A stretch of 64,000 nt of DNA from NCBI GenBank assembly GCA_017506865.1, contig JAFCMP010000547.1, positions 1,612,001-1,676,000 on the forward strand. The letters run 5' to 3'. The notes beneath the pieces are model-generated. The model saw only the letters and a list, made by a program, of their open reading frames with translations, did not search any database and was not told the origin of the DNA. Positions 37,301 through 64,000 of the stretch are shown here, piece by piece; the first letter of the stretch is position 1; each line of letters opens with the position of its first letter. The translations under genes and the position numbers were made by a program. Source of the stretch: Tribonema minus. Its lineage: Eukaryota; Sar; Xanthophyceae; Tribonematales; Tribonemataceae.

Positions 37301-40300
37301 GGCGAGGCACTGCTCACGGGGCGGGTGGCTGCTTTCACTGGTGCACCAGGCCCAGCGGCCATCAAGAGGTGTTCATAGCGTAGGCCGTCCAGCCCTCCTG
37401 CCTTCCCCGCCCCTGCTGCGGACAAGGTCGACAGTATGTCTGCCGCCTCCACCTCGAGGCGCCGTCCGGCTGCGCTGGCAGCATCCTCAGGCCTATCGCT
37501 GTGATCATGTGCCTGACCCGATTCGAAGACAGGACTGCCGCTGCCAGCTGGCCCGGTGGTCGTTGCCACCCCTGCGCTGTGTAAGCAGTGCCGCCGGGCG
37601 TCGCGTACCAGGCCGCGCACTTGCTCCATTGGCGTATCGACTACCCCCGGCCGGGTGCCAGTTTCAGGGTGCTTTGCTGCCAGCACCTGTGCCGTGACCT
37701 CGTCTGCTGGGGCGCATGCTTCACGCGCCTCTAGTCGTGCGGCAGCCAAGCCTACCCCCCGTCGCTTGCCTGAGAGGGCAGCGCATGCTGTTTGCTGCCT
37801 GGAGTCAGCCTCCGTCCAGTCGGCATCGAAGTTCGTTTGTGCCGACGCCATAGCTGCGTTGTTTGGTTTGGGGGCCCGCAGCGCCGCTGCTGCTGACAGC
37901 GTCTTTCTCAGTAGCTCCGCGAAGTCGCCAGACAGCAACGCTGCCAGCCGGGCCGCAGGCGGCATACCGGTTCCCTCCGGTTGCCTACCAAAGGCCATCG
38001 CTGCTAGCAGGTGCAGCAGCCTGTAGCCGCGCTGCACTAGAGTCTGAGAAACCTGATGAGCAAACGCCCCGGCACCATGGTGGAGGCGCACCCGTGCCGC
38101 CTCACGTGCACTGTCTGTGGCGTCCGCCAGTAGTCGTGTGGCGTGCTCCACTAGCCGTGCCCACTGGGTGCACTGCAGCTGAGTGCGGAAGGGGTTGGCA
38201 GTCGTGGTGAACCGCAGCAGCAGTAGATCCGCCTCATTGGTCTGGTCAAGTGCGTGGACGACCGAGGGCGTCGAGAGGTCCCAAGCCAGGGATGCTCGTG
38301 CCTGGGGCTTTGAGGGCCTGCCACTGGTGGTGGTGGTCGGGGGGGGCGGTGACGCGGCATCGTCCGGCGGGTCCACGTCCATGTCCGCCCATCCCACGGC
38401 CGTCCCGCGGGGGGGGCTGCTGTCCTGCAGCCTCAGGCTGTCAGACTGAGTGCGGCTGCCGGCGCTGCTAGGCGGTGCCGCAGCAGCTGCCGTTCGGCGC
38501 CGGCGTTGCGCGCCGGTTGCCGTGGCCGCCGGGCGTTTCTTGCTAGACTTTGAGTTGGCAGCGCCACTAGCCGGCACCGCCGGTAGTTTTGGAGGTGTCG
38601 CTGCGGCAGCCCCCGCCGCCGCGGCCGCGCCGTCGCTACCCGCACCCCCGCCCTCGGACTGGCCCGGGGGTACTGCCGGGCGTGCGCGCGTGGGGGCGCT
38701 TCCATTCCGTCGACACGTGTGGCATGGCGAGGTCAGCGCGCATTGCCTCTGCCCCGCGCTGGCTGACATATGGACCAGGCCGCAGGCACCTGTGCATGCA
38801 CTCAGCTTCCTTACCGCCCGTAGGAAGTCTTCTGCCGTGCAACCATACATGGTGCTCATCTCCTGCACATGCTTGGCATGGTGTGCCCCAGTGCTGCAGG
38901 TACTGCTGCCTGAAGGGGCACGGTCACCGGATGGGTCGTGATCAACCTGCTGCCGGATGCCCTTGGCGTATGCTGCCGCCGGATTTTGCTGACAGTGTGA
39001 TGTGCTCGCCTCAGGGTTCAGCATCGACCTCGTGCAGCTACCACCGTTGAAGTGGGCCACTACCGGTGCCATGCGGCTCGCAGCTGACAGTTTGCCTCGC
39101 TGTTTGCTGTCCTCTTTCTGACCAAGCTGCCAAAATGCCAGTGTGCATAGTGGACACCTCAGTGGCTCAGGCTGCTGTGGCAACTGCAGCGCAGTACGGG
39201 GCTGTGTCCGACTCGGAGCCGTGATGTGGGTGCTGTCAGCTTGAGTGGTCGCCGACGCTGTCATAGTGGTTGGCAAGGGCGGAGCTGCCGCAGGGGCGAC
39301 AAGCAGTTCAAAGTGTCCCACATTTGTATATAGCCCAGGCGGCGTCCACAGCACATCCAGATGGCAGTCAGGCTGAGCTGGAGTCGCCGGTGCGAATACC
39401 GCTGGCAGCCCCATCAGTTGTGCCAGCACCAGCCCTGTTGATTTTTGCGTGCTGCCAGTGGCCTGAGGCTTGGCCTGCCACACCGTCACCGAGACCGCGT
39501 AGACCGCTGCAACAATGGCCCACACAGACAAACCGAGGGGCCGTCCCCACACGCCCTCTTCCTGTAGGCGTTGCAGCAGGAGCGTGTGCCCGCTGTCCTT
39601 GCTATCCGTTTCATTTGTGCCGTACTCGATTGCGAGGCAGCGAGCGCGTGTCCCGTACGTGTCGAATTGTTCACGTGTACACGCAGGTTGGGCTGCGGCA
39701 TGCGCGGTCAGTTGACGCATCGATGACATGCTGGCCCCTTGTTTGCCCGCCCCCTGCGTGACGTATGCCACCATCCCGTCCAGCAGTGCCTCTCGCATGG
39801 CAATCACCAGCGCTGGGGCCGGCAGTCCGTGCTCAACTGCGACGCTGCCTATGCCGTGTAGAGCTGTATGAATCAGGCAGTTGCCGTTGCCCACGTTGCT
39901 CACGGGGCGAAGCTCCCCACCACGTGCTAGCGTCGCTGTGTTTTCCCCAAGCGCCTGTTTGTGGAGTGCCTGCAGGCCCGTGTGCCAAGTGGAAAAGCCA
40001 TAGTTGGTGGCTTTTGCCAGCGCGTCTTGCTGCTCCTCCACGGTGACTGTATGGCACACGGTTGAGGGTATCCGGGTCGCCACCGTCACGGTGGTGACCT
40101 TCGCCGGCCCGGATATTGGTGCTGAGGGGGCAGAGGCACCGCCCCTTGGCGGTGTGGTGGCTGGTGCCAGCTGCCCTAGGGGTGCAGGAGAATTGTCGCA
40201 CTGGGCCTGTCGCTCCTGCGTCCGCCGTCTGTGTTTACCTCTGCGTCGACTGCGCTTTCCACTGGCAACCATAGCCGTGACAGATGCTGTCTCGGTCATT

Positions 40301-42765
40301 GTTGCGTGGGTGCTGTTATCACCGGCCTGCGTTACGTCTGACTCGCCATGTTTCCCGGCTGGCTGGCGAGGCGACCTGGCAACGACCGGTTCCCTAAGGG
40401 AGAGTTGGTCAAACACCGCTGCCAGGTCGTTACCCTCTTCTCGGAGGGAGAGCAAGCTGAACGTGACCGTCAGGTCATGCATCTGATTCACCAGCGGTGC
40501 GCAGGGAGTCCGGCCCAGCAGGGTCTGTGTTGCTGGCGCATGCAGTCGGCGTGACGTGCGGCCGGGTTCAAGCTTGGTACCCGTCGGCCAAGCGCAAAGC
40601 ACCGTGACGCGTGCCCGATTGGGGGCAAGGGCCAGTGCACGTACCCTGCGCGCGAGTGCGCCAGCCGCCCCCAGCAAGCCTTGCCAGTGAGATCCCGTCG
40701 GGTCCCTGGGGCATTCGCTAGACTGAGCGCCCGCTGCGACAGCAGCTGCTGCACTGCCAGGTGTGCTGGGCACACGATCGTTGCTTGACATCGTTGCGCC
40801 GCTATCGCTAGCACGACTTTCGCCAGGCAGCACACCCATTGTGCTGCTCCGGGTCAGTCTCGGCAGCGGCGCAACTGCCACACCGTCCAACGTAGATGCA
40901 TGGGCTTGCCTGGGGTCCACCCCCAGGTGCTCGCATCCGAGGATTTTGCGTATGGGACCACATTTGCTAGCGGCGGCGAGCAGCGCGGCTGTTGGCTTCA
41001 GGCTATTCCCCCCACCAACAGCTGCACCACCCGCTGCCGCCGCGCATGTCGTTGGTCGGGTGTGTATGTCAGCAATGTGATCATGGCCTGATGCACGGTC
41101 ACAGCCTGACAGTGTGCATGCTGTCGCGGCGACCGGGCCTGCGAGGCAGTCGGCGCAGCGCCACACGTCGCACTGGTCCAGGGCCCCTAGATCACCAGAT
41201 GGTGTCGTGGCGCTTGCTGCTGTGCGTCTGATGAAGAGGTTGCCGCACCCATCGCAGACCTGCTCCAGGCCGCCGCATATTGGTCGGTGGTCTAGGAAAA
41301 GCTGAACATGCAGTTCTGCAAATTGCTTCCCTTTCCCTGTGTGGCGCGTGCGCTGGTGTGCACATGCGTGTGCCGCTGGGCAATTCTTGTCCAGGGCGCG
41401 AGGATTTGCTCGCACTATGAACTTGTCGCACATGCGGCAGTCCAGCCCCGGGATATTGACCTTCCGGTTGGCAGCGTGTATCTTGGCGGGCGCCAGATCT
41501 GTCCTAGCGGTGATGCCGGATATTGGGTGCCCGTTGCGACTGTTACCGTCAGAGGTGACGCTGCCGCCTGACAGAGAGGCGCCGCTGCCAGCTGGCTGCA
41601 AAAACCGGGACGTGATTTGTCTCTGGTGACCCGCCGGCCCAGGTTCGCCAACTTCCATCGGTACAGGCATGGTCACGGTGACCGGCTTTGCCAGCGCACC
41701 GCCAGACTGTGGCTCTGGGCGGGTGACGCTGCCAGTGCTTTGGGCGCTGGCGCGGCGCCGACCCCGCCGGGGTGCAGCCGCCCCACGTTCGCCGCCCGGT
41801 GCAGCAGCGGCCGCTGGTGCTGTTGTCACCATGTCTGCAGCACATGGGGTTGCCGCTGCGGTGACCTCCATCGGCTGAGGACCGGGATGCCACTGGGGAG
41901 AGGCGCCGCTGCTAGCTGGCTGCGAAGGCCGCGACGTGATCCGTCTCTGGTGACCCGCTGGCCCACTGGTAGGTTCGCCAACTTCCATCGGTACGGGCAC
42001 GGTCATGGTGACCGCCTTTGCCAGCGCACTCAGTTTGCCACACGGCGACTCTGGGCGGTTGATGCTGCCAATGCTTCCGAGGCGGCCCAGGGGCGGCCCA
42101 GCGTTGGCGCCGCGGCGCCGACCCCGCCGGGATGCAGCTGCCCCGCGTTGGCCATCTGATGCGGCAGCGGCTGCCGGTGGTTTTGGCACCATGTCTGCCG
42201 CACGTGGCGTTGCCGCCGCCGTTAAGTCGGAGGTAACCTTGCGACCGCATGCAGCGGCGGCTGTGACAGTCGTCCGTGGCTGTGCAACCACCTGGTTGGC
42301 CGGTGCGGGCCCCGCCGCTGGTGCGGCAGTGGCAGCCGTCACTAAAGGCGTTTTCCGCCGCGATCGTCGTTTTGGCATTGGCGTTGTCGCTACTGGTGGA
42401 TCCGGCGGCAGTGTCGCCCGACGGCGTGTACTTGCCGCTGGTGGCGGTAGTACCACCAAGCTCAGTACAATTATCGCTGTTGGCGGCAGTGCCTCCCGTA
42501 AACTCGCCGCTTGAGCCTCCGAGTCACTGGCAGGCTGATGCCGCGGGCGCTTCGTCTGTGAGCATCCCCTGTTACAGTGATTACTGGCACCTGGGCTGGT
42601 CAGATGGCGGCGGCGCTTCTTGACGTGCGCATGGCTGCCACTGCCCTGAGGCTCGTCCGAGTCGGCTGACGACAAGTGTAGTCTGCGCATGCTTCTGCAC
42701 AGCTCTGCAACCTGACTGCATACTGGCACCTCTGGCATCGGCCGCGGTCTAGAGCTCTGGGCCAT
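34321..42765 (-). CDS. Retrotransposon polyprotein: OTU-like protease, zinc fingers, reverse transcriptase, REL endonuclease
   Basis: This intact ORF of 2814 codons starts at ATG 42765-42763 and ends at the TAG at 34321. The N-terminal 900 residues are Ala/Pro/Arg-rich, with Cys/His clusters near residues 440-560. An OTU-like cysteine protease follows: GNGNC with Cys963, and NVGHFELLV with His1151. A zinc-finger-like CPLC...H...C lies near 1200, with another Cys cluster near 1330. The reverse transcriptase has QLDCENAFNSVD (Asp1939), GCQQGDPLGPLYF (about 2000) and FLDDLN (Asp2047-Asp2048, in place of YADD). A CPWRC...H...C knuckle lies near 2585, followed by a restriction-like endonuclease: RADTVID, VLDTSV (Asp2677), EDAKVKHH (Asp2708, Lys2710) and FVPFVQESYGRLG. 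It would act in target-primed reverse transcription in the nucleus. The OTU role is unknown; polyprotein or ubiquitin processing is a guess. Confidence 0.9.
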   Translation of the reverse strand: MAQSSRPRPMPEVPVCSQVAELCRSMRRLHLSSADSDEPQGSGSHAHVKKRRRHLTSPGASNHCNRGCSQTKRPRHQPASDSEAQAASLREALPPTAIIVLSLVVLPPPAASTRRRATLPPDPPVATTPMPKRRSRRKTPLVTAATAAPAAGPAPANQVVAQPRTTVTAAAACGRKVTSDLTAAATPRAADMVPKPPAAAAASDGQRGAAASRRGRRRGANAGPPLGRLGSIGSINRPESPCGKLSALAKAVTMTVPVPMEVGEPTSGPAGHQRRITSRPSQPASSGASPQWHPGPQPMEVTAAATPCAADMVTTAPAAAAAPGGERGAAAPRRGRRRASAQSTGSVTRPEPQSGGALAKPVTVTMPVPMEVGEPGPAGHQRQITSRFLQPAGSGASLSGGSVTSDGNSRNGHPISGITARTDLAPAKIHAANRKVNIPGLDCRMCDKFIVRANPRALDKNCPAAHACAHQRTRHTGKGKQFAELHVQLFLDHRPICGGLEQVCDGCGNLFIRRTAASATTPSGDLGALDQCDVWRCADCLAGPVAATACTLSGCDRASGHDHIADIHTRPTTCAAAAGGAAVGGGNSLKPTAALLAAASKCGPIRKILGCEHLGVDPRQAHASTLDGVAVAPLPRLTRSSTMGVLPGESRASDSGATMSSNDRVPSTPGSAAAAVAAGAQSSECPRDPTGSHWQGLLGAAGALARRVRALALAPNRARVTVLCAWPTGTKLEPGRTSRRLHAPATQTLLGRTPCAPLVNQMHDLTVTFSLLSLREEGNDLAAVFDQLSLREPVVARSPRQPAGKHGESDVTQAGDNSTHATMTETASVTAMVASGKRSRRRGKHRRRTQERQAQCDNSPAPLGQLAPATTPPRGGASAPSAPISGPAKVTTVTVATRIPSTVCHTVTVEEQQDALAKATNYGFSTWHTGLQALHKQALGENTATLARGGELRPVSNVGNGNCLIHTALHGIGSVAVEHGLPAPALVIAMREALLDGMVAYVTQGAGKQGASMSSMRQLTAHAAAQPACTREQFDTYGTRARCLAIEYGTNETDSKDSGHTLLLQRLQEEGVWGRPLGLSVWAIVAAVYAVSVTVWQAKPQATGSTQKSTGLVLAQLMGLPAVFAPATPAQPDCHLDVLWTPPGLYTNVGHFELLVAPAAAPPLPTTMTASATTQADSTHITAPSRTQPRTALQLPQQPEPLRCPLCTLAFWQLGQKEDSKQRGKLSAASRMAPVVAHFNGGSCTRSMLNPEASTSHCQQNPAAAYAKGIRQQVDHDPSGDRAPSGSSTCSTGAHHAKHVQEMSTMYGCTAEDFLRAVRKLSACTGACGLVHMSASAGQRQCALTSPCHTCRRNGSAPTRARPAVPPGQSEGGGAGSDGAAAAAGAAAATPPKLPAVPASGAANSKSSKKRPAATATGAQRRRRTAAAAAPPSSAGSRTQSDSLRLQDSSPPRGTAVGWADMDVDPPDDAASPPPPTTTTSGRPSKPQARASLAWDLSTPSVVHALDQTNEADLLLLRFTTTANPFRTQLQCTQWARLVEHATRLLADATDSAREAARVRLHHGAGAFAHQVSQTLVQRGYRLLHLLAAMAFGRQPEGTGMPPAARLAALLSGDFAELLRKTLSAAAALRAPKPNNAAMASAQTNFDADWTEADSRQQTACAALSGKRRGVGLAAARLEAREACAPADEVTAQVLAAKHPETGTRPGVVDTPMEQVRGLVRDARRHCLHSAGVATTTGPAGSGSPVFESGQAHDHSDRPEDAASAAGRRLEVEAADILSTLSAAGAGKAGGLDGLRYEHLLMAAGPGAPVKAATRPVSSASPGLAGDSESDVMEPAFAHHLAKVFTTLLVEPELLPEQSQRLLRAAALSGIGQKRRPIACSSVWRRLLGSTAARSVKGKISGLLASMSQFGVGYRSGVEHVAARARVWHELYGTTIQLDCENAFNSVDRAAIVRGLMLFCPELLPHFESVYCGDTAPEMRVEVNGEARIICSHLGCQQGDPLGPLYFAVAAAFLLFYPDGVNATPGSMPAYGHSTAEPPAPHCAFLDDLNVLQAAYFDDAAAAGVAEVIRRLAAGGLRVRPDKSLAIAMRGTVFDEAARARLRALDIPFVDTTMPESSQGFTSVGVPVGHPAYVHAAMSKHLVDAGTWRLSWQLAGMARHHLQAAQFILRRSLTKRMGFLARVVDTALSETWLHAFDGFCAWTLERMLHLHGCSTAAAMKSHLLAACTAGDNEEASSGSVLVLPRLGPPELTDIAVPLRASRLPERRGGLGMPLLGLLAPAAYTAQACTTLRPAIIHATVAAGALRLGTDEHGAVTWFAQHSCAIREDQGLPPIIEAVRRSTRALTADGGEKSRTAVAEQLPASLLRWAADTTAAASTLPTAVQAIYAATAVTETVTTEPAPHTHGIVPGAEAAAAAATVPGPQAAAAAAPSTPAKTQTSAEESSCSGGQEDDDDDWEAYADEICRKVVPRRRRGHFTHGLQAGLSNVLRRQYEDCLVEDLEAASAGAVGKPTQAAPIGDSRDTSRRRQQASARVLAQLRSQRASGAMAWMSVPPTANDRPGAAPMSSMAAATMILIAIFIDGWGIQGEVCPWRCSDVSPTSTHAISCPSQHIRGHNATHTAQKRCLQRILRQHHVSIVRNEDASVFKVPGYRADTVIDPGCLHFSSAYRNKGIVLDTSVRAPTASSNLTGRTNASNTDGYAAGVGEDAKVKHHTGTLTSSWAFVPFVQESYGRLGKQTSLFVKELAMHSALCSGGGKADVLRKAGLAKRQILIELSISLARELAERVMAYTRGARMLGCVAAPVSKLLGHSAD

Positions 42766-42773
42766 CAGCTGAG

Positions 42774-42955
42774 GTGGTGGCGGGCCGGGTATCGGCGGCG
42801 GGCCCGGAATCGGTGGCGGACCCGGGATCGGCGGCGGGCCCGGTATCGGCGGCGGGCCCGGGATCGGTGGCGGGCCCGGTATCGGCGGCGGGCCTGGAAT
42901 CGGCGGCGGGCCCGGGATTGGCGGCGGGCCCGGGATCGGTGGCGGCGGCGGTATC
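42774..42955 (-). repeat. 18-bp tandem repeat in the 5' leader of copy 1
   Basis: About ten copies of GGCGGCGGGCCCGGNATC (written on the + strand) lie upstream of the start codon. The main ORF frame stays open through the array and would read IPGPPP repeats, but no ATG is available there, so translation is uncertain. In another frame the array reads PGPAAD-like repeats. Confidence 0.8.
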
Positions 42956-42985
42956 GCTAGGCGTACCCAACGGCCATCATTGTAC

Positions 42986-44346
42986 TTGTGTGTATAATCG
43001 TTTGGGGTGCAAGAAAGCCTATGTTAATGATGAGATACTGGAGCGGTCATGTCGTGTCTTGACATGGCGCAGTATAACATGCTCAACACTGTCCCATAGA
43101 CAGCTGCTTTCAAGCCATTGAACACTTCGTACCTAGGCAACTGCCCACAGGCTTCAACAAAATTTAGAGCCACTTGTACGGCCACAATTGGCATGAAATA
43201 TTATGAAAAATAGTGGCGTCGATCACGACGGGCCGCTGACATTCACGGCGACCTGATGAAGGGCACATGGGTAATTGAAGAAGTGCGCGAGCACTTCCAG
43301 CCAATCAGATGACGCGGCCGAACATTGTGCGTCTGCAAGGCACACAGTGGCAAAGCATGGAGGCTTGCGCTGCAGTTGTGGCACGTGCTGCGGTGTGTGG
43401 GAGTGGTGCTAGTGCCAGCAACGCCGCTTTGGCGCTGTACCTTTGCGTCATCAGCGGCCGCGAACGCAGTTCACGTCTCATGAGCCACATCGCTTTGTTT
43501 GAATGCACTGCTCGCTCATGAATCACATCACGCCAGAAATTGATGGACAAGAAGCAGTACAGAATGGCTCTTGGTAAATGAACACCACATGACACCTGAC
43601 ATCATCCAGCCTCTCTTGCGGCCTTTGTGAACGCAAGTTGGTGACTGAATGAGTGCGTATTGCTGGACGATGGAGTATCTGAAACCGCAGCTGTTCACAC
43701 GTGGTACTGCAGAGTGCCGCTGCAGAGCACAGCCCTGCTGTTAAAAAAAAACAGCACAGCGAAACAACGACACCAATTTGTGCACTGATGGGTTGACACT
43801 TACCCAAAGATAGCGTCCGCAAGCAGGTCCACCCCCTCGCTGCCTTTTCAAGTCCACCCCCGCTCACCCCCTTTCTGCCTCTGCTCCAATCTTCATCTCC
43901 CAGCGTCTCGTTGAACAATTTGGCGCTCCGGTTGCAGGTCATGATTGTGGTGACTGTTGCGGCGGAGAACGAAGCTCCACAATCGCAAGCTGCAGTGCGC
44001 CCCCCAGTGCGATACTGGCTGCAAACTGCTGTCCGTGCGCGCCAGCAACTTGGCGTCTGCAAGTCATACCTGCGAGCAACAGCAAGCATTGACCTTGTCC
44101 CCTGGGCCCTCCCCTTCCCCCTATTTGGCTCTGTGGGACCTTTCTGCTACAGTTATGTGCTTGAACTGACATTTGAGAACAGTATCTGTGGGAAAAGGGC
44201 TTGATATCCTTGAGAATCACATGCCCTCTGCTCTGCTGTGATCATATGATATAATAATTAGTGACATCATGACGCAGTATTTGTTGAAATCATGATATTA
44301 TCTTGTTAGTCACTTTGCAATTCGCTCATTGACAGATCCAATCCAG
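42986..44346. other. Spacer between retrotransposon copies, possible Cys-rich exon near 43937-44060
   Basis: No gene is firmly supported. After a TTGCAG at 43937 two + frames are open and Cys-rich (for example QCAPQCDTGCK), resembling exons elsewhere in the window, but the frame cannot be chosen. Nothing else was seen. Confidence 0.3.
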
Positions 44347-44355: not shown

Positions 44356-47300
44356 GTATGGACTTGTATTTATAAAGGCCCAAGGGAGGCCGGGTTGCCT
44401 ATGCAATCGAAAAGCTTGCGTCAACGCAGCAGCCTAGTCTGCGCTGTGCCCTAGGAGTTTGGATACCGGCGCCGCAACACAGCCCAGCATTCGCGCTCCA
44501 CGTGTGTATGCCATGACGCGCTCCGCCAACTCCCGCGCCAGCGATATGCTCAGCTCAATGTGGATCTGACGCTTAGCTAACCCGGCCTTGCGTAACACAT
44601 CTGCCTTCCCCCCCCCTGAGCACAGTGCTGAGTGCATTGCCAACTCCTTAACAAAAAGGCTTGTCTGCTTGCCCAGCCGTCCGTACGACTCCTGCACGAA
44701 TGGCACAAAAGCCCAAGATGACGTCAAGGTGCCGGTGTGGTGCTTGACCTTCGCGTCCTCCCCCACCCCAGCAGCATAGCCGTCCGTGTTCGAGGCATTT
44801 GTTTTGCCTGTCAGGTACGAGCTCGCTGTGGGTGCGCGCACACTTGTGTCTAGCACTATTCCCTTGTTACGGTATGCACTGCTAAAGTGCAGACACCCTG
44901 GGTCAATGACTGTGTCCGCCCGATACCCCGGTACCTTGAAGACGCTAGCGTCCTCATTGCGGACAATAGAGACATGGTGCTGTCTCAAGATGCGCTGTAG
45001 GCACCGCTTTTGGGCAGTGTGTGTTGCGTTGTGCCCCCGTATGTGCTGGCTGGGGCAGCTGATCGCATGCGTGGAGGTGGGGCTCACGTCACTGCACCGC
45101 CATGGGCACACCTCGCCCTGTATGCCCCACCCGTCTATGAAGATCGCAACCATAATCATCGTGGCTGCTGCCATACTGGACATGGGCGCCGCACCCGGGC
45201 GGTCATTGGCAGCGGGTGGCACGCTCATCCACGCCATTGCCCCGGACGCACGCTGGCTGCGCAGCTGCGCCAGGACCCGCGCGCTAGCCTGTTGGCGGCG
45301 GCGGCTGGTGTCACGCAAGTCACCAATAAGTGTAGCCTGCGTCGGCTTGCCCATGGCACCAGCCGAGGCAGCCTCTAGGTCCTCCACCAGGCAGTCCTCG
45401 TATTGACGTCGAAGAACATTTGAAAGGCCGGCTTGTAGTCCGTGCGTGAAGTGACCGCGCCGGCGGCGGGGCACTACCTTTCTGCAGATCTCGTCAGCAT
45501 AGGCCTCCCAGTCGTCGTCGTCGTCCTCCTGCCCGCCGCTGCAGCTGCTTTCTTCCGCGCTAGTTTGTGTTTTAGCGGGCGTGGAAGAGGCAGCCGCGGC
45601 AGCGGCTTGAGGGCCAGGTACGGTCGCCGCCGCAGCGGCCGCCTCGGCGCCAGGCACAATGCCGTGGCTGTGTGGGGCTGGCTCAGTGGTCACTGTCTCC
45701 GTGACGGCAGTTGCGGCGTAGATCGCTTGCACCGCAGTGGGGAGCGTCGACGCTGCGGCCGTTGTATCCGCTGCCCACCGTAGCAACGATGCTGGGAGCT
45801 GCTCGGCCACAGCTGTGCGTGATTTTTCGCCGCCATCAGCTGTCAGCGCTCGCGTAGAGCGTCGCACGGCCTCGATGATTGGCGGCAGTCCCTGGTCCTC
45901 GCGTATTGCGCATGAGTGCTGCGCGAACCAGGTGACTGCGCCGTGTTCGTCAGTGCCGAGCCTCAGGGCCCCTGCTGCCACAGTGGCATGAATTATTGCA
46001 GGCCGCAGTGTTGTGCATGCCTGGGCCGTGTATGCGGCTGGTGCCAGTAGCCCCAAAAGCGGCATGCCCAGACCGCCTCGTCGCTCCGGCAACCGTGACG
46101 CCCGCAGTGGCACTGCGATGTCCGTGAGTTCTGGCGGGCCCAAGCGCGGCAATACCAGCACGCTGCCACTGCTGGCTACCTCATTGTCACCAGCAGTGCA
46201 GGCGGCCAGCAGGTGTGACTTCATGACTGCCGCGGTAGCGCAGCCGTGCAGGTGCAGCATGCGTTCAAGCGTCCATGCACAGAACCCGTCAAATGCGTGC
46301 AGCCATGTCTCACTCAAAGCCGTGTCAACGACCCGAGCTAAGAAGCCCATGCGCTTCGTCAGTGACCTGCGCAGAATGAACTGTGCTGCCTGTAGGTGAT
46401 GCCGCGCCATCCCAGCTAGCTGCCACGACAATCGCCATGTCCCTGCGTCAACGAGATGCTTGCTCATGGCAGCATGCACATAGGCTGGGTGCCCTACCGG
46501 TACCCCGACCGACGTAAAGCCCTGACTGGATTCTGGCATGGTGGCGTCCACAAACGGTATGTCAAGGGCGCGCAGGCGTGCTCTGGCCGCTTCATCAAAC
46601 ACTGTGCCGCGCATGGCAATGGCCAGCGACTTGTCTGGTCGAACGCGTAGGCCCCCTGCCGCAAGCCGACGGATCACCTCTGCCACCCCAGCGGCCGCTG
46701 CATCGTCGAAGTAGGCAGCTTGCAGCACGTTGAGGTCATCCAGGAAAGCGCAGTGCGGGGCTGGCGGTTCCGCTGTGCTGTGGCCGTAGGCCGGCATACT
46801 GCCGGGCGTCGCACTCACTCCATCAGGGTAGAAGAGTAGGAATGCCGCTGCCACTGCAAAGTACAGCGGCCCTAGAGGGTCCCCTTGCTGGCACCCTAGG
46901 TGGGAGCAGATAATGCGAGCTTCACCGTTCACCTCCACTCGCATCTCTGGGGCAGTGTCACCACAGTATACGGACTCAAAGTGCGGGAGCAGCTCCGGAC
47001 AGAAGAGCATAAGTCCCCGCACAATGGCGGCGCGATCCACACTGTTAAATGCGTTCTCACAGTCCAGCTGGATTGTGGTGCCATACAGCTCGTGCCACAC
47101 GCGCGCGCGCGCTGCCACATGCTCGACGCCAGACCGGTATCCTACGCCAAACTGCGACATGGAGGCCAGCAGCCCCGATATTTTGCCCTTGACACCCCGT
47201 GCCGCTGTGGACCCGAGGAGTCTGCGCCAGACACTGGAGCAGGCGATCGGACGCCGCTTCTGTCCTATGCCTGAGAGGGCCGCGGCGCGGAGAAGCCGTT

Positions 47301-50300
47301 GCGATTGCTCCGGCAGCAGTTCGGGCTCAACAAGCAGCGTCGTGAACACCTTGGCCAGGTGATGGGCGAATGCCGGTTCCATCACATCCGATTCTGAATC
47401 ACCAGCTAGTCCTGGCGAGGCACTGCCCACGGGGCGGGTGGCTGCTTTCACTGGTGCACCAGGCCCAGCGGCCATCAAGAGGTGTTCATAGCGTAGGCCG
47501 TCCAGCCCTCCTGCCTTCCCCGCCCCTGCTGCGGACAAGGTCGACAGTATGTCTGTCGCCTCCACCTCGAGGCGCCGTCCGGCTGCGCTGGCAGCATCCT
47601 CAGGCCTATCGCTGCGATCATGCGCCTGACCCGATTCGAAGACGGGACTGCCGCTGCCAGCGGGCCCGGCGGTCGTTGCCACCCCTGCGCCGTGCAAGCA
47701 GTGCCGCCGGGCGTCGCGTACCAGGCCGCGCACTTGCTCCATTGGCGTATCGACTACCCCGGGCCGGGTGCCAGTTTCAGGGTGCTTTGCTGCCAGCACC
47801 TGTGCCGTGACCTCGTCTGCTGGGGCGCATGCTTCACGCGCCTCTAGTCGTGCGGCAGCCAGGCCTACCCCCCGTCGCTTGCCTGAGAGGGCAGCGCATG
47901 CTGTTTGCTGCCTGGAGTCAGCCTCCGTCCAGTCGGCATCGAAGTTCGTTTGTGCCGACGCCGTAGCTGCGTTGTTTGGTTTGGGGGCCCGCAGCGCCGC
48001 TGCTGCTGACAGCGTCTTTCTCAGTAGCTCCGCAAAGTCGCCAGACAGCAACGCTGCCAGCCGGGCCGCAGGCGGCATACCGGTTCCCTCCGGTTGCCTA
48101 CCAAAGGCCATTGCTGCTAGCAGGTGCAGCAGCCTGTAGCCGCGCTGCACTAGAGTCTGAGAAACCTGATGAGCAAACGCCCCGGCACCATGGTGGAGGC
48201 GCACCCGTGCCGCCTCACGTGCACTGTCTGTGGCGTCCGCCAGTAGTCGTGTGGCGTGCTCCACTAGCCGTGCCCACTGGGTGCACTGCAGCTGAGTGCG
48301 GAAGGGGTTGGCAGTCGTGGTGAACCGTAGCAGCAGTAGATCCGCCTCATTGGTCTGGTCAAGTGCGTGGACGACCGAGGGCGTCGAGAGGTCCCAAGCC
48401 AGGGATGCTCGTGACTGGGGCTTTGAGGGCCTGCCACTGGTGGTGGTGGTCGGGGGGGGCGGTGACGCGGCATCGTCCAGCGGGTCCAAGTCCATGTCCG
48501 CCCATCCCACGGCCGTCCCGTGGGGGGGGCTGCTGTCCTGCAGCCTTAGGCTGTTAGACTGAGTGCGGCTGCCGGCGCTGCCAGGCGGTGCCGCAGCAGC
48601 TGCCGTTCGGCGCCGGCGTTGCGCGCCGGTTGCCGTGGCCGCCGGGCGTTTCTTGCTGGACTTTGAGTTGGCAGCGCCACTAGCCGGCACCGCCGGTGGC
48701 TTTGGAGGTGTCGCTGCGGCAGCCCCCGCCGCCGCGGCCGCGCCGTCGCTACCCGCACCCCCGCCCTCGGACTGGCCCGGGGGTACTGCCGGGCGTGCGC
48801 GCGTGGGGGCGCTTCCATTCCGTCGACACGTGTGGCATGGCGAGGTCAGCGCGCATTGCCTCTGCCCCGCGCTGGCTGACATATGGACCAGACCGCAGGC
48901 ACCTGTGCATGCACTCAGCTTCCTTACCGCCCGTAGGAAGTCTTCTGCCGTGCAACCATACATGGTGCTCATCTCCTGCACACGCTTGGCATGGTGTGCC
49001 CCAGTGTTGCAGGTACTGCTGCCTGAAGGGGCACGGTCACCGGATGGGTCGTGATCAACCTGCTGCCGGATGCCCTTGGCGTATGCTGCCGCCAGATTTT
49101 GCTGACAGTGTGATGTGCTCGCCTCAGGGTTCAGCATCGACCTCGTGCAGCTACCACCGTTGAAGTGGGCCACTACCGGTGCCATGCGGCTCGCAGCTGA
49201 CAGTTTGCCTCGCTGTTTGCTGTCCTCTTTCTGACCAAGCTGCCAAAATGCCAGTGTGCATAAAGGACACCTCAGTGGCTCAGGCTGCTGTGGCAACTGC
49301 AGCGCAGTACGGGGCTGTGTCCGACTCGGAGCCGTGATGTGGGTGCTGTTAGCTTGAGTGGTCGCCGACGCTGTCATAGTGGTTGGCAAGGGCGGAGCTG
49401 CCGCAGGGGCGACAAGCAGTTCAAAGTGTCCCACATTTGTATATAGCCCAGGCGGCGTCCACAGCACATCCAGATGGCAGTCAGGCTGAGCTGGAGTTGC
49501 CGGTGCGAATACCGCTGGCAGCCCCATCAGTTGTGCCAGCACCAGCCCTGTTGATTTTTGCGTGCTGCCAGTGGCCTGAGGCTCGGCCTGCCACACCGTC
49601 ACCGAGACCGCGTAGACCGCTGCAACGATGGCCCACACAGACAAAACCGAGGGGCCGTCCCCACACGCCCTCTTCCTGTAGGCGTTGCAGCAGGAGCGTG
49701 TGCCCGCTGTCCGCGCTGTCCGTTTCATTTGTGCCGTACTCGATTGCGAGGCAGCGAGCGCGTGTCCCGTACGTGTCGAATTGTTCACGTGTACACGCAG
49801 GTTGGGCTGCTGCATGCGCGGTCAGTTGACGCATCGATGACATGCTGGCCCCTTGTTTGCCCGCCCCCTGCGTGACGTATGCCACCATCCCGTCCAGCAG
49901 TGCCTCTCGGATGGCAATCACCAGTGCTGGGGCCGGCAGTCCGTGCTCAACTGCGACGCTGCCTATGCCGTGTAGAGCTGTATGAATCAGGCAGTTGCCG
50001 TTGCCCTCGTTGCTCACGGGGCGAAGCTCCCCACCACGTGCTAGCGTCGCTGTGTTTTCCCCAAGCGCCTGTTTGTGGAGTGCCTGCAGGCCCGTGTGCC
50101 AAGTGGAAAAACCATAGTTGGTGGCTTTTGCCAGCGCGTCTTGCTGCTCCTCTACGGTGACTGTATGGCACACGGTTGAGGGTATCCGGGTCGCCACCGT
50201 CACGGTGGTGACCTTCGCCGGCCCGGATATTGGTGCTGAGGGGGCAGAGGCACCGCCCCTCGGCGGTGTGGTGGCTGGTGCCAGGGGTGCACGAGAATTG

Positions 50301-58110: not shown

Positions 58111-59177
58111 GCGTCGGCGTGTGGTGCCACTGGACGACTTTGGCTGCGAGTGGTACGCAACTGCGGTCTACAGCATCGTAAACTGTATGGCCAACGGCGG
58201 CGGCGATCAGCCACGGCTCAACATGCTGGCCCGTCAGGCAGCCTCCTGGGAGACGCAGGCAGTGAGCAGGGCCTGCGCGACGGCGCGCTACTGTCATGGC
58301 TCTTCACCAAAATCGCCCAGTTCCTGGAGATTGAGGAGCCCACTGCGGTGGCTGCCAACCTGATGAACTGGTCACTGCGTCAGCATGAGGGGCTGGCGCT
58401 CAAGTACTTCATCGTGGAGTTTTCAGACGCTGCCCAGATCGCCACATCGCTGGACAAGTCTCTTGACCACTTCGTGGTCACCGCACTGCAGCGGATCATA
58501 CGCCACCACTATCCCTACATCTCAACCCCCCTACAAACAGGCCATCCTAGAGCCCACGGCACGCTCGGAGGATCTACTTGCCATCCTGGCGGAGGAGGCA
58601 CAGGGCGCTGACCACTACTCTACGGCGCCCCTGGAAGATCGCCCTGTCTATCCCACAAACCTGGTCTCTTACGGCAAGGGGCTCAACCGAGGCGGCGGCG
58701 GCAGCGGCGGCGGCGGCAGCGGCGGCGGCGGTGGTGCCTAGCAAGCCAAACCGCGACAGGATTGCCGCTGCTGCTGAGAAGGAGGCGCGCAGGGCGGCCG
58801 CGCACGAGGAGCAGCAGCGCTGCCAGGTGCAGTACGCGATCTACGAGATCTGCAACACTGTCCCGGGATGTACCCCTGCATGCTTCAACTGCGGCAGCAC
58901 TGAGCACGTGTCCGCGCGGTGCGACGCCGACTACAGCGCTGAGAACAGGGATGCAGCGGTCCAGCGGCAGCCGTGGGTGGTCAAGTTCCGGCCGAGCAGC
59001 GCTGAAGATTTCAAGCAGCTATGCGCGCGGGCGGTACAGGGTGCAGGACGGGGGGAACGCGGCAGGTCGGCGCAGTCGGCATTCAGCAGGCGTGGCAACG
59101 GCGGAGGCCACGGCGGTTACCGCGGCGGCTACAGTGGTGGCGGCGCTAGCGGTGGCGGCGGCGGGCGCAACACCTAG
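58111..59177 (+). pseudogene. gag-like region with CCHC zinc knuckle, frameshifted
   Basis: Three frames must be combined. Capsid-like helices (WLFTKIAQFLEIEEPTAVAA, then LKYFIVEFSDAAQIA) read in one frame to about 58530. Then ARSEDLLAILAEEAQGA and a (GGGGS)-like linker read in a second to about 58740. A third frame runs to the stop at 59175-59177 and contains CFNCGSTEHVSARC, a canonical CX2CX4HX4C nucleic-acid-binding knuckle. The end is Gly/Arg-rich, like an RGG tail. The start codon is not identifiable because the first 150 bp are also damaged. Confidence 0.7.
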
Positions 59178-59227
59178 AGGTTCAACTCCACGCCAGCCCT
59201 CGGCGTGGGGAGAGCACTCCTAGTGTA

Positions 59228-59584
59228 ATGGGGGGCGGGAGTGACGCCCCGCCCCGGACGGCAGTCAGCACGCACGGCACGCCCGCGGTTGCAGCAGCTG
59301 CTCAACAGCAGCAGCAGCAGCAGCCGCTCGTGGTTGCAGCGGCTGCGTCACAGCTGCGGCAGCAACCGCATTATCTCCCTACGACAGCGGCGCCGGCATG
59401 CGCCGCCTCAGCTGCGGCGGCAGCAGCGCCTGCGGGCGCCGCACCAGCGGTGGCGGGCACAGCTTCTGCGGTGGCGCCACTGATCGCCACATCTGCAGCA
59501 ACTGCGCTCCAAGACGCAGCCGCTGAGCGACGGCAGCGGCGCTCGCAGGCGCTGCGCCGCTTGCGGCGCATTCAACTGCTGTGA
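59228..59584 (+). CDS. Gln/Ala-rich open frame in the element, function unknown
   Basis: This open frame of 118 codons starts 50 bp after the gag stop. It is a Gln and Ala run followed by a basic end (RRQRRSQALRRLRRIQLL). It may be part of a gag-pol linker or non-coding GC-rich repeat. The antisense strand is open too, so coding status is weak. Confidence 0.3.
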   Translation: MGGGSDAPPRTAVSTHGTPAVAAAAQQQQQQQPLVVAAAASQLRQQPHYLPTTAAPACAASAAAAAAPAGAAPAVAGTASAVAPLIATSAATALQDAAAERRQRRSQALRRLRRIQLL

Positions 59585-60639
59585 AGGCGCCGTTGAGCGC
59601 TGCACACACATCAGCAGCGCGACGGAGTGTTGCGGCGCCAGCGGCGCCCGGCCCGTGGTACTATCTTCTCTGCATGCAAGTAGCAAATTGCCCCCCACCG
59701 CCTCGCCCTTCATACTGGCATTGCCACCAGTGGCTCAGCAGCACGCGCAGCACCGCCGCGCGGCGCAGCGAGAGCCCCAGACGGCTGGCTTCGCTACCCC
59801 CTACAGTACGTCCGTGGCTGCTACGGCGGCACGCGGGACAGCTGCGTTTCAGCGTGCTTCAGCGACCAGCGCCGGCTCAGGGGACATGCGCCATCAAGGG
59901 GGCGGGGGGCTGCCCCATCAACTGCGGCAGCAATTATTGTTCCAACGTCAGCGGCGCCCGCGATGACGCACGCTGCACCTACTTCAGCTTCTACTTCAGC
60001 TTCACCACGACCTGCGACAACTTCAACCTCATCACCTTCTACACCTACTTCAAGGTCAGCCGCATGCGACGACGGCAGCACTGCCTTCGCCAAAGGCGCG
60101 CTGGTGACATATCTGAAGCAGGGTGCAGCAGAGGGCGAGTCTGCCCAGATCCTTGCTGTGCACAGCCAAGCTGGCGAAGACCCATACTACACCATGCTAC
60201 TGCTGCGCTCATGTCAAGAACGGCAGACTGATGCTGCACATTTGCGCCTCTGCCAGCACGCTGCGCCATCAGCGACGGCAGTTGCTGCTGCTGCTACGGC
60301 GGCGGCGGCGGCAGCGCTGTCAGCGCCGGCAGTACCGGCAGCAGCGGCAGCGGCTGCGGCGCCGGCGCCAGCAGCGCTGGCAGCACCGGCAGCAGCGGCT
60401 GCGGCTGCGGCTGCGGCGCCGGCGCCGGCAGCGCCGGCAGCACTGGCAGCAGCAGCGGCGGCGGCGGCGGCGGCGGCGCCAAAGGCGACACACTCAACTG
60501 GCACCACCAGCAGCAGCCACGCCTCGGCGCGCGCGCAATGGGCAGACTTCGGGGCGTGCGCAGCACAGTGACACGCGCAGAAGCAGGAGACCAAGGCACG
60601 CTTTCAGCGGCAGCTACAGGCGAGCATTGACGACGACGA
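59585..60639 (+). other. Linker region with a possible SH3/Tudor-like segment and alanine-coding repeats
   Basis: At about 60072-60250 one frame encodes FAKGALVTYLKQGAAEGESA, then ILAVHSQAGEDPYYTMLL and ERQTDAAHLRL. This looks like a small beta-barrel segment common in retroelement polyproteins, but the call is tentative. From about 60255 to 60480 the sequence is GCN/GGC trinucleotide repeat, open in several frames on both strands. Confidence 0.4.
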
Positions 60640-60948
60640 GTGGCCGGCCTGGCCACAGCGACGTTACATCATAGTGGGGGTTCTTCTACGCTGGCCGATG
60701 TTGCGGAAGACGGCTTGGACAGCTTGGGGCTTGAAGAGGCAGCGGTGGACGCAGCCCGCCTTGCAATGTATTTCAACGGCCTCATCTCAGCGCTCTACAT
60801 ACCAGAGAGCCGCACACACGGGCCTGGTGCCAGCGACGCTGCCATCTTCCAGTACTACGCGGAGGTGGTGGCATTGGAGGCGCAGCTACTTCCGCGGCAC
60901 AACAGGTTGCGTCAGGCAAGCTGCGCGGCTCTGTGCATGCTGACTTGA
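60640..60948 (+). CDS. Helical open frame upstream of the protease
   Basis: The frame encodes STLADVAEDGLDSLGLEEAA, then AARLAMYFNGLISALYIPE and a segment with IFQYYAEVVALEAQLLP. The composition is clearly protein-like and amphipathic, unlike the other frames. It is probably part of the element polyprotein, separated from the protease frame by a short damaged stretch (60920-60965). Confidence 0.45.
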   Translation: MAGLATATLHHSGGSSTLADVAEDGLDSLGLEEAAVDAARLAMYFNGLISALYIPESRTHGPGASDAAIFQYYAEVVALEAQLLPRHNRLRQASCAALCMLT

Positions 60949-60965
60949 ACTCCCTCTGCAGGTGA

Positions 60966-61397
60966 AGGCTGCGCTCGGCCCGCGCTCAGCGGTCCTCTTT
61001 CGTCAAGCGTAGCCTGTGGGACTCTGGTGCGTCAGTAACTGCCATCTCACAGCGCTGCTATGAGCGTCTACTGGCTGGTGGTGCCATTGACAGTGCCGAC
61101 GTCCACAAGCTTACTGCGCCACGCAGCATTGCCGGCATAGACACCAGTGCTGCCCCGCAGAAGGTCACCATCATTGTGGCCCTACACTTTGGCGCAGTCG
61201 GCACGCATGGCCTTTCAGCTCCCGTCATGGCGCTTGTGGTACCGCACTTGCTGTACGACTTCATTCTGGGGCGTGACTTCATCAACCGTCACCCCTGGAC
61301 TGCCGTCAACACACCTTTGTACGGCTTTGGCAGCGAGGAGTCCCCACCACCTGGCAGCACTGAGTACAAGTTCGGCAGCGCTCATCCACAGGCTTAG
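60966..61397 (+). CDS. Retropepsin-like aspartic protease domain
   Basis: The open frame encodes SLWDSGASVTAIS with the catalytic Asp-Ser-Gly (GAC at 61020-61022), then a strand-rich middle (KVTIIVALHFGAVGTHG) and YDFILGRDFINRHPW, the conserved 'hydrophobic-hydrophobic-G-R-D' flap-end motif of retroviral-type proteases. The length is about right for one protease protomer. A TAG stop ends the frame at 61395-61397, after which the same frame stays open to 61754. It would cleave the polyprotein as a homodimer. Confidence 0.8.
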   Translation, partial: RLRSARAQRSSFVKRSLWDSGASVTAISQRCYERLLAGGAIDSADVHKLTAPRSIAGIDTSAAPQKVTIIVALHFGAVGTHGLSAPVMALVVPHLLYDFILGRDFINRHPWTAVNTPLYGFGSEESPPPGSTEYKFGSAHPQA

Positions 61398-61754
61398 CCC
61401 ACACAAAGTGACTCTGCAGCCTACTCATCTCCTACGCCCCCTTGCTACGCATACGACACTGACAAGCCGTGGGTGGCAGTAGTGCGCGTGGACGCGCATT
61501 CACCGGAGACACCTGCCGATTCCGCCACACCAGTGTTGATTCAGGTCATGGAGGCAGATGGCGTAACACCAGTGCAAGCCCCGGTGGAGCAGATGGTCAG
61601 CAGCACATGCAGATACTGTCGCCAGCACGGAGCTAGCTACGGGCACCTTTGCCAAGCCAGTGGTCCTGCAGAGGCGCGCCCACGCTCCATTCAGCCTGCC
61701 ACGTGGCACAGTGCTCGGCAAGGCGATTCCACTTCGCAGTGTACCTGCCAATGA
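61398..61754 (+). pseudogene. Protease-methyltransferase linker with Cys/His motif
   Basis: Continuing the protease frame past the TAG gives WVAVVRVDAHSPETP and a CRYCRQHGASYGHLC motif (possible zinc binding). From about 61655 the meaningful reading moves to another frame, with FSLPRGTVLGKAIPL, a segment often found after retroelement proteases. One stop and one frameshift are therefore needed. Confidence 0.5.
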
Positions 61755-62800
61755 CATGCACCGCAAGCACGTCGACCGCCCCTGCGCCGTGGAGGTCTAC
61801 TGCGGCGCCGGCGGTATGGCGGAGGGCCTCCGCCATTACGCTGACATCGCCGTCGCCATCGACCACAAACAGCGCGCACTGGACATCTACAGCGCTAACC
61901 ACCCCGGCACGCAGACGCTGCGGCGCGACATGGCGCTGCCAGAGACGCGGCGCGAGTGATCACTGCCATGCAGCATCTGCAGGCGCAGGTGCTCTTCGAC
62001 GGCCCACCATGCACACGCTACTCGTATGCCGGCACGCGGCTAACGGCACTTCGCATCCAGCACTTGTACTACATGTTGGAGGTTGCCATAGGCGCAGACT
62101 GCTGCCGGTTGCTTCTGCTGGAGAACGTGCCCGGCTTGCAGAGCGCGCCCGAGCTCACGGAGTTCTTGCATTGCGCTCACCACAACGGCTTTACGTTACA
62201 GGAGGCGCTGTACATTTGTGGGGACGACGCGCACCTTGCGAAAAGGTGCCATCGCGTTTTCTATGTGCTAGCGCGGCCCGGCAGCGGGGAGCATGACAGC
62301 GCGCACATGCGCGCGTCCATGGCGCACGCGCGCGAGCTATTGGCCTTGCCAAGGCCAGAGCCTCATACGAGTCAGTGCGTGAGGTCACCGGCGACGTACC
62401 CGACAGCAGTGGTCAGCAGCGGCAGTTCTTCACGTCAGTTCGCCGCAACCGTCTCTCCAAGCAGGTCTACAGCATGGACGGACCAGCGGCGACTACGCGC
62501 GGCAGCACCTACCGCCGCGACCCCAAGCCAACTGGTGTATAGTGCACCATGTGTCCAAAGGATGCCACTCAAGACCCGGCCGAGTTTGCGCGCGATGAGC
62601 ATCTGCCGTGGTCAGCACTGCGCGCAGTTCACAGCTCTCCTGCCACGTACAAGTGGGATGCGCCGAAAGCCGGCGACGTCGCCACATATGCGCAGTACCT
62701 TGCCAATGCGTGGCGCCGCGCATGGCGGAGCTGGTTGGTGACATCTTGCAGCAGAGTGGCGTCTTCCATGACGCTGCAGAGCAAGCGGCGCGGCCCCTGC
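61752..62800 (+). pseudogene. Cytosine-5 DNA methyltransferase domain embedded in the retrotransposon (frameshifted)
   Basis: The C5-methyltransferase motifs appear in order. Motif I is EVYCGAGGMAEGL (61792-61830, SAM binding) and motif II region is VAIDHKQRALDIYSANHPG. Motif IV is DGPPCTRYSYAG with the catalytic Cys at 62010-62012. Motif VI is LLENVPG (62121-62129) and motif VIII is AKRCHRVFYV (about 62238-62267). A motif IX-like region is VYSMDGPAATTRGS, then HLPWSALRAVHSSPA. Motif X-like is YLANA, then APRMAELVGDIL after a frame change. It would transfer methyl groups from S-adenosylmethionine to cytosine in DNA. Frame changes near 61950, 62335 and 62712 and a TAG at 62540-62542 mean this copy is inactive as it stands. 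No extra regulatory domain is seen. The closest family cannot be told without a search. Confidence 0.85.
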
Positions 62801-63538
62801 CACCCGAGATTCAGACGCTGATCAACACCGGCACGCACATCACTTTCGGCACGTACGGCGTCAAGCTCGCAGCTGCAGCACGGCAGCGCATGCGCGACAT
62901 GGCGGCAGGTGCTGCCACGTCGGCATCGCCTAGCGCTCCCGACAAGGTGCGTGCAGCAACAGCGCAGCCCGTGGCACCGGCGGATGACACAGCACCATCC
63001 CCCGTGCGCGCGCCGCGCGCTGTGGGAAGCCACAACAGCGGCGCGCGCAGCAGCGGCAGCAGCGGCGGCGTCGGCAGCGCCAGCAGCAGCAGCGGCGGCA
63101 GCAGCGGCGCCTGCGCCAGAGTCAGCAGCGCCTGCGCCGGAGGCAGCAGCGGCGGCGGCACCGACGCCCACTTGTTCGCACCACACGCGCGTGGCTCCTG
63201 CCGCGGCGGCACCTGTGAGGCATCAGCTCGCACTTCAACGCACGGTGCGCACGCTGCGGCCTCGGCGCGGCGGTGGCGCCGGCAACAACATCATCACCTG
63301 CGCGCAGAAGTAAGGCGGCGGTTCTCACAGCAGCAGCAGCTGCGCATGCCCATCATTGCCTACTTTAATGCGCGCTGCGGCGGCGGCGCCTGCCGCAGCG
63401 GCGGCACATGGCACTTCTTTGGGGGGGGGTGAAGGTGGTGGCAATGCGCTCAGCGGCATCTTTTCGCTGGACATGCGCACGGAGGAGTGGAGCCGCACTA
63501 GCGACACGGGCACTGACGCGGACGCTTGAGCGGCTCCC
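62801..63538 (+). other. Ala/Ser/Gly-rich linker between methyltransferase and reverse transcriptase
   Basis: After the methyltransferase the frame continues with PPEIQTLINTGTHITFGTYG, then enters a GC-rich tract coding Ala, Ser or Gly runs, with open frames on both strands. A G run at about 63420-63429 and a TGA at 63527 interrupt the frame just before the next ATG. Confidence 0.5.
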
Positions 63539-64000
63539 ATGGACGCGGCAGCGGTGCGCGAGGCGCTGCAGCAGCAGCTGGGTGAGTCGATCTCCTTTGA
63601 ACCAGAGCAGGGGGATGCAAAAGTGCATATACCTGATAGTGGTGGCGTTGCTTTGGGGACTTATGCTCACATAGACCCCAAGGTGAATGCAGCACTAGAC
63701 AAGGCTCGCGAGTGCTTGCCAGCTCATATGTTGGCATTGCGCGTGGACCTTGAGGGGTGGAATGCGGACCAAATGGCGCGGCTGTGCTCCATGTTGGCAG
63801 AATATGCCAGCAACACCTTCTCTAAGAACAAGTGGGATGTAGGGTTCTGTGATGCCCTGCCTTTCCGCCTTAAGTTAAGGGAGGGCACTATGCCATGCCA
63901 CGACCGCCCCTACAGGTACTCCCCTGCGATGACGGCACTCATCAAGGTTGAGATTGACAAGCTGCTTGCGGCTGGCATCAGACGGCCCTTCCTGTCCAAC
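63539..64000 (+). CDS. Start of Ty3/Gypsy-like reverse transcriptase (truncated by the window end)
   Basis: From ATG 63539 the frame is open for 154 codons to the last base. After an acidic, helical leader (MDAAAVREALQQQLGESIS; LALRVDLEGWNADQMARL) it reads FRLKLREGTMPCHDRPYRYS, then PAMTALIKVEIDKLLAAGIR and RPFLSN. The 'RPYRYSP...EI..LL..GI.RP' signature is the N-terminal edge (motif 1 region) of Ty3/Gypsy reverse transcriptases. The catalytic motifs lie outside the window. Confidence 0.8.
   Translation, partial: MDAAAVREALQQQLGESISFEPEQGDAKVHIPDSGGVALGTYAHIDPKVNAALDKARECLPAHMLALRVDLEGWNADQMARLCSMLAEYASNTFSKNKWDVGFCDALPFRLKLREGTMPCHDRPYRYSPAMTALIKVEIDKLLAAGIRRPFLSN

Follow-up and report, generated by a model that had tools for sequence, protein, structure and literature searches.

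A Ty3/Gypsy retrotransposon family with a C5-cytosine methyltransferase, probably of bacterial type, encoded within pol

The window, by which we mean the whole 64,000-nucleotide stretch analysed here (contig C544:1612001-1676000 of a 158-Mb genome in 554 contigs), ends inside a fragment of a chromodomain-bearing Ty3/Gypsy LTR retrotransposon, of the kind designated type A below. The fragment lies on the forward strand at 58133..64000 and extends in the sequence past the window end (L009) to about window-equivalent position 67105 (L009:5606); both of its ends and its LTRs are gone. It shows 88% identity by blastn over 5953 bases to L023, the central piece of a copy on contig C66, and L009 shows 93% identity over 2141 bases to L045, an adjacent piece of that copy. 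Similarity between the window and C66 is confined to 58133 to about 67105, ending 3.1 kb past the window end, and the LTR of the C66 copy, used as a query, has no match in the window or in L009. The features of the fragment all read in the forward direction. The C-terminal part of gag with a CCHC zinc knuckle (58551..59177) matches PF00098 at E=2.1e-4 (21.7 bits, just over the cut-off of 20.8). A retropepsin with DSG and ILGRD motifs (60984..61313) is 95% identical by tblastn to the protease (PR) of L023 (7e-67); the stretch 60966-61397 has its best match among the aspartic protease models in PF13975, at 4.3e-5 and 24.5 bits, under the cut-off of 28.2. The C5-cytosine methyltransferase (MTase) follows at 61765..62710 in at least three frame segments, of which 61765-61956 and 61956-62354 show 92% and 88% identity by tblastn to the L023 MTase (6e-97) and 62300-62710 finds its best match in the more distant L012 MTase (56%, 5e-42). 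The frame 61899-62741 matches PF00145 at E=1.1e-6 (28.7 bits, over the cut-off of 22), and the frame 61567-61959, containing the motif I part, matches it at 0.0094, under the cut-off. The Gypsy reverse transcriptase (RT) starts at 63758..64000 and runs to window-equivalent 64535 in L009 (tblastn 76-80% to the L012 RT, 2e-117); a Pfam search of this start alone (63530-63999) gave no match. Integrase (window-equivalent 65348-65921, tblastn 2e-73) and chromodomain (window-equivalent 66700-66889, tblastn 5e-15) lie in L009, both of them split into two frame pieces. The initial annotation had placed a cytosine methyltransferase between a retropepsin and the start of a Gypsy RT, and this order is borne out by Pfam and by tblastn mapping with the domains of the relatives.

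Elsewhere in the window, two open frames on the reverse strand, of 2900 aa (34324-43023) and 1795 aa (44437-49821), have weak RT matches (PF00078 at about 1e-6, just under the cut-off) and belong to another type of retroelement; neither gives an MTase match at E 0.01. A tRNA-Leu (CAA) gene lies at 24893-24974. The host is photosynthetic: its genome has 92 antenna-protein matches, mostly covering parts of the family as expected for split genes. One translated antenna exon (L113) matches PDB chains named fucoxanthin chlorophyll a/c protein (FCP) and another (L112) matches chains named LHC, ACP and CAC, the multi-domain LHCI being set aside; we take ACP and CAC to be cryptophyte names. An exon-wise search of the genome for the RuBisCO small subunit gave no match.

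The window copy is dead: it is frameshifted, truncated at both ends and devoid of LTRs, and 13 frame-breaking indels are specific to it in the roughly 4.5 kb compared, in agreement with its earlier description as a broken element. Its domains are not a chance assembly, since five other loci, on C66, C279, C312, C423 and C522, are 94% identical in DNA to window 60966-62800 over the whole of that stretch; a further one, on C479, aligns full-length at 93%. At the five 94% loci, which are assembly loci whether allelic or not, the MTase is unbroken within open frames of 1844-2758 aa and is 100% (rounded) identical to the L023 MTase, L023 being the C66 copy itself. That copy, which spans three adjacent pieces (L046, L023 and L045), is bounded by 233-bp LTRs that are 100% identical and is flanked on both sides by a 4-bp target duplication, CACT; it is a young insertion. 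Its LTR begins with TG and finishes with TA rather than the usual CA, a G-rich tract precedes the 3′ LTR, and the sequence after the 5′ LTR includes TGGTTCCCGG, a candidate primer binding site. The expectation that intact relatives exist in the same genome is thus confirmed as far as open frames go, in copies with unbroken pol, one of them with LTRs. One copy, at C522:1907838-1910233, has two RT matches 1.6 kb apart, which suggests either a duplication within the element or the insertion of one element into another.

MTase-bearing elements occur in this genome in two arrangements. In type A, the type of the window, the order is PR-MTase-RT, seen in every type-A locus for which the sequence retrieved spans the three domains, namely L010, L011 (twice), L012, L013, L023, L026, L027 and the window; L026 and L027 are more divergent members, and L028 displays PR and MTase only. 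The full type-A order, read in L012, is PR-MTase-RT-RNaseH-IN-chromodomain. In type B the order is MTase-PR-RT, found in eight loci (L014, L015, L017, L019, L021, L022, L024 and L025), with the MTase alone seen in L016 and L018; in L014 and L024 one open frame spans from the part preceding the MTase through the integrase. A type-B copy on C112 has 377-bp LTRs that are 99.2% identical and a stop within its coding frame, so that direct LTRs were found in both copies examined for them, one per type, the window copy being without an LTR. In the 5′ coding part of the type-B element L024 a 300-base sequence occurs three times without change, the copies being spaced at 519 bases (L024:7896-9233).

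Assignment to Ty3/Gypsy follows from the pol order PR-RT-RNaseH-integrase on one polyprotein. In L014, L024 and L012, RT, RNase H and Integrase_H2C2 are over the Pfam cut-off in all three and the integrase core rve is present under the cut-off in all three; PR gives a weak sub-cut-off Pfam match in L014 and none in L024 or L012, where it is recognised by motif and position. A chromodomain after the integrase, the mark of chromoviruses, is over the cut-off in L012 (PF00385, E=1e-6), and as a tblastn query this domain matches L045 and L009; the Pfam search of L014 and L024 reported no chromodomain, and that of the L023 gag matched no family. Domains of the elements matched 41 of the 46 sequences searched by tblastn. 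An RT at C23:140 kb indicates how far apart the types are: it shares 69% identity with the RT of L014 (type B) vs 38% with that of L023 (type A). More distant Gypsy RTs in the genome show 35-37% identity.

Both types are abundant. Searched against the genome it comes from, the window MTase frame gives at least 138 matches, a figure in which each piece of a split match counts singly, and the union of searches gives at least 267 MTase-matching places, broken copies included (78 from the window MTase query plus 129 from a second search and 60 from the first 61 matches listed by a third, matches less than 1.5 kb apart being merged); the type of each place was set by the matching query rather than by reading the place itself. 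Among the matches listed, an MTase lies at most 4.6 kb upstream in 66 of 83 type-A RT places. These 83 were hand-picked from 149 listed matches by removing second pieces of split matches and those below 56% identity, and an MTase on C75, detected only on reading the sequence, was added to the MTase places for this count. The other 17 have no upstream MTase among the matches listed; they are not taken as MTase-free, because the C75 MTase was likewise missing from those matches and yet is present in the sequence. A search for further copies, proposed in the initial annotation, hence speaks for an enzyme that belongs to the element and not for a lone host gene fragment.

Our analysis of the MTase itself identifies it as a member of the C5 family, with PF00145 matches at E 2.4e-18 to 4.2e-16 in L012, L014 and L024 and with the ordered motifs I, IV, VI, VIII, IX and X that define such enzymes found in the alignments. 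Motif X is clear in type A and weak in L014; in the remaining type-B sequences it falls outside the region aligned. Ten sequences were aligned, eight retrotransposon MTases and two free-standing genes, and 10/10 keep the cysteine of motif IV, ENV, and the R.R of motif VIII. For motif IV as a whole, type A has PPC (PPCT in L023, PPCQ in L012), and type B has APC (L024) and SSC (L022). Against PDB, the best match of the type-A profile is DNMT2 (47.6 bits), narrowly over DNMT1 (43.5), and that of the type-B profile is again DNMT2 (53.1 bits), clearly over the next, HhaI (39.0). Chains named DNMT3 are absent from the 49 matches of the type-A profile (E up to 10) and from the 25 of the type-B profile (E up to 0.01), and membership of the Dnmt3 class is rejected on these PDB profile matches. 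In NCBIfam the enzymes match dcm TIGR00675, under the cut-off in 7/7 proteins scanned, and in PHROGs they match phage DNA methyltransferase families. Among candidates from a set of 5.8 billion proteins, chosen for similar total length only (5753 for type A and 3376 for type B), no relative was found at E 0.001. Three free-standing C5 methyltransferase genes, L001, L002 and L003 (on C223 and C181), lie outside retrotransposons, each as a single open frame (390, 367 and 369 aa) with an FPC motif; L002 matches the phage family phrog_363 at 7e-46.

Maximum-likelihood trees recover type A and type B as one clade each, and A, B and nine further rows (seven Pseudomonadota, one Latescibacterota and one viral contig) fall on one side of a branch with 96 SH-aLRT support in the quick tree and 100/98 in the careful tree. 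The retrotransposon MTases stand apart from the DNMT1 and DNMT2 rows, DNMT2 being represented by two partial rows. The reference rows (55 of 76, dereplicated, in the quick tree and 29 in the careful tree) were fetched with the type-A profile (61/63 viral loci and 80/80 genome loci) and are thereby biased toward the kin of type A. Of the comparison with DNMT1, DNMT3, DNMT5, bacterial and retroelement-borne enzymes called for in the initial annotation, these trees cover DNMT1 and the bacterial enzymes; they have no DNMT3, DNMT5 or DNMT6 rows. The best reading of these sequence comparisons is that the MTase is of bacterial type, a grouping that does not thereby prove direct transfer. As to the number of captures, a profile comparison of A and B gives a near end-to-end alignment (22% identity, E 2.6e-24), a similarity that leans to one capture, and in the trees a grouping of A with B alone reaches no more than 84 SH-aLRT (quick tree) and 78/49 (careful tree). 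A more elaborate scenario, which we put forward tentatively and hold to be rather less probable than its negation, is that two bacterial-type rather than Dnmt3-type MTases were captured on opposite sides of PR by two Gypsy lineages, that both lineages expanded (to scores of type-A copies and well over a hundred type-B copies), and that the particle-borne enzymes would methylate CpG in the cDNA of their own elements and also shape the methylome of the host.

The junction between gag and pol offers a clue to how the enzyme might be expressed. In the window an in-frame UAG (59175..59177, forward strand) separates the two, matching the junction UAG of L023 (3979), L013 (2719) and L028, so that all four type-A copies with a recognisable junction have it, with gag and pol sharing a frame. 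L013 and L028 represent one subfamily; the UAG is thus seen in two subfamilies and the window. The junction is not recognisable in the fetched stretch of L010, L011 (two copies) and L012, and in L026 and L027 a UAG ahead of pol lies in a repeated stretch with no recognisably matching junction. L023 (3979-4014) and L013 (2719-2754) share the same predicted 9-bp hairpin 8 nt past the UAG, in which two stem pairs are changed on both sides between them, a covariation drawn from two sequences only; in the window a possible hairpin at the same distance (59186..59210, forward strand, pairing 59186-59194 with 59202-59210), picked out by eye from the sequence, is a candidate readthrough signal. Compared with shuffled sequences, the 100-nt fold is ordinary for its composition in L023 (z -1.48, 17/200 as good) and unusual in L013 (z -2.82, 2/200 as good). 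Murine leukaemia virus has gag, UAG and pol in one frame with an RNA structure beginning 8 nt downstream, and there a pseudoknot is needed. The likeness lies in the in-frame gag-pol UAG and a structure 8 nt on, which here is only a predicted hairpin, and stop-codon readthrough in this Gypsy element is possible on the modelled folds.

Selection on the MTase was estimated by Nei-Gojobori dN/dS in 16 pairs (eight MTase, four PR and four RT), with ratios that are rough where dS exceeds 1. For the MTase the ratios are 0.076, 0.069, 0.113 and 0.236 in type A and 0.142, 0.198 and 0.203 in type B, one of the eight pairs being saturated; for PR they are 0.079, 0.079, 0.200 and 0.054, and for RT 0.080 and 0.191, with two pairs saturated. 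The MTase is under purifying selection of about the same strength as PR. It is also less conserved than RT in like-for-like pairs, which counts against the explanation we favour below: in L023-L012 the MTase is 64.5% identical vs 84.2% for RT (dN/dS 0.236 vs 0.080), and in L024-L022 the figures are 64% vs 89%. PR identity in these two pairs is 52% and 71%, and the MTase behaves more like PR.

The element copies also bear a history like that left by CpG methylation. When changes are polarised against C66 and a second subfamily, the window lineage has transitions at 61 of 835 CpG sites vs 33 of 1699 other C/G sites (13/687 CHG and 20/1012 CHH), an approximately four-fold excess (Fisher p=1.5e-10), with no transversion bias to CpG on this lineage (p=0.51). 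In six type-B copies singleton transitions fall on 30 of 644 CpG columns vs 16 of 1816 non-CpG columns (9/608 CHG and 7/1208 CHH). CpG depletion is not seen in the unbroken elements, whose observed/expected ratio is 0.82-1.01 vs 0.78-0.86 in other parts of the window. The transition pattern is what CpG methylation followed by deamination leaves; it is compatible with a host or an element enzyme as the agent and says nothing on who methylates. Self-methylation or hiding, raised in the initial annotation, is a possible role that goes beyond what this pattern shows.

The explanation that we consider probable is that the window copy is a dead element, truncated at its ends, of a Ty3/Gypsy family whose pol includes a complete bacterial-type C5 MTase between PR and RT, and that this enzyme acts as follows. 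The UAG would be read through with the aid of the hairpin to give a minority Gag-Pol product, which would bring the MTase into the virus-like particle, where the protease would free it alongside RT. In LTR elements, pol-encoded enzymes are expected within particles next to RT. In the particle, or on arrival in the nucleus, the MTase would methylate the new cDNA and nearby host DNA at cytosines, CpG being the probable context; this methylation may damp expression of the new copy and lower the cost to the host, or may mark copies as already silenced, and as the outcome the element would persist at high copy number. Retrotransposons are normally silenced by cytosine methylation, and it is paradoxical that an element should carry and preserve an enzyme with this activity. 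With a high copy number, two arrangements and an apparently bacterial-type enzyme in one genome, the question becomes accessible to comparative tests: should selection maintain the same activity in both arrangements and in an enzyme of another class, the element must profit from catalysis as such.

Several other readings have to be weighed. That a host gene or a piece of one landed in a retrotransposon by chance, so that its association with PR and RT would be accidental, might be suggested by the window copy on its own, fragmentary and frameshifted as it is, and by the one-frame MTase genes L001-L003 in the same genome. We judge this extremely improbable, because the MTase lies upstream in the 66 of 83 type-A RT places noted above among the matches listed, unbroken polyproteins hold it in frame (in one copy with LTRs), and L001 and L002 are placed elsewhere in the trees; identity as a host gene fragment is refuted by the in-frame MTase copies. 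It is quite improbable, too, that the enzyme is directed to RNA as DNMT2 is, or is kept for folding or SAM binding alone without methylating DNA: DNMT2 chains are the top PDB matches of both profiles, but the trees put the MTases with bacterial enzymes and not with the two partial DNMT2 rows, and decay specific to CpG is in keeping with methylation of DNA at some place in the genome, whatever its agent.

More weight is due to the readings that keep an active enzyme and alter its task. Host enzymes alone might methylate the elements, and the element MTase might be retained for a different function, cDNA processing for example; the CpG decay in type-B elements, whose MTase differs, agrees with this, but selection on the catalytic motifs is left unexplained unless catalysis is used elsewhere, and we hold it to be unlikely. 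Somewhat less unlikely, to our mind, is an action in trans, with rivals of the element (other elements or DNA viruses) or the DNA of the host as target and not the element's own cDNA. The residence expected of a pol-encoded enzyme, in particles beside RT, favours cDNA as the substrate; on the other side, the enzymes resemble bacterial and phage MTases, the at least 267 matching places could influence the entire methylome, and an anti-DNA-virus role has been proposed for retrotransposon methylases (PMC6338049). Methylation of the element's own cDNA remains the account we prefer.

Retrotransposons that bear an MTase have been described since 2018, and the kind of element reported here is already known. 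According to an opinion paper, Gypsy and DIRS elements that encode Dam or Dcm occur in stramenopiles, in charophytes and in both red and green algae, the two enzymes not being told apart in the passages drawn on (PMC6338049). DIRS elements with a Dam-like adenine methylase (PMC5890265, PMC6338049) resemble ours as retrotransposons with their own DNA methylase; however, theirs is an N6-adenine enzyme structurally unrelated to C5 enzymes (PMC5890265). DIRS elements use a tyrosine recombinase. In Symbiodinium, SymbioDIRS-Dnmt3 and SymbioLINE-Dnmt account for hundreds of retrotransposon-borne MTases, of which the SymbioLINE enzymes are described as an orphan non-Dnmt3 lineage in elements with reduced CpG, and De Mendoza and colleagues report that the DIRS enzymes are active in yeast (PMC5890265). 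The likeness to our case is that of many retrotransposon-borne MTases in an alga, those of SymbioLINE also being non-Dnmt3; the difference, judged by description, is that the Symbiodinium elements are LINE and DIRS and not LTR/Gypsy (PMC5890265). Within the open-licence literature, in the portions consulted, detailed C5 cases come from dinoflagellates and charophytes only, and KnitGypsy-Dnmt3 of the charophyte Klebsormidium nitens is the sole Gypsy case (PMC5890265). The latter is described as a Gypsy-type element in several copies with a Dnmt3-related C5 MTase in pol, Ka/Ks below 0.2 and repeats arranged as in DIRS (PMC5890265). Our elements share with it a C5 MTase within a Gypsy pol polyprotein, several copies and purifying selection; they are set apart, by its description and not by its sequence, in that the MTase is non-Dnmt3 by PDB profiles and that direct LTRs are present in one copy of each type. 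New, as far as the open-licence literature goes, are a non-Dnmt3 MTase of apparently bacterial type in a Gypsy element, its two positions relative to PR, and a gag-pol junction with a UAG and a predicted hairpin in such an element.
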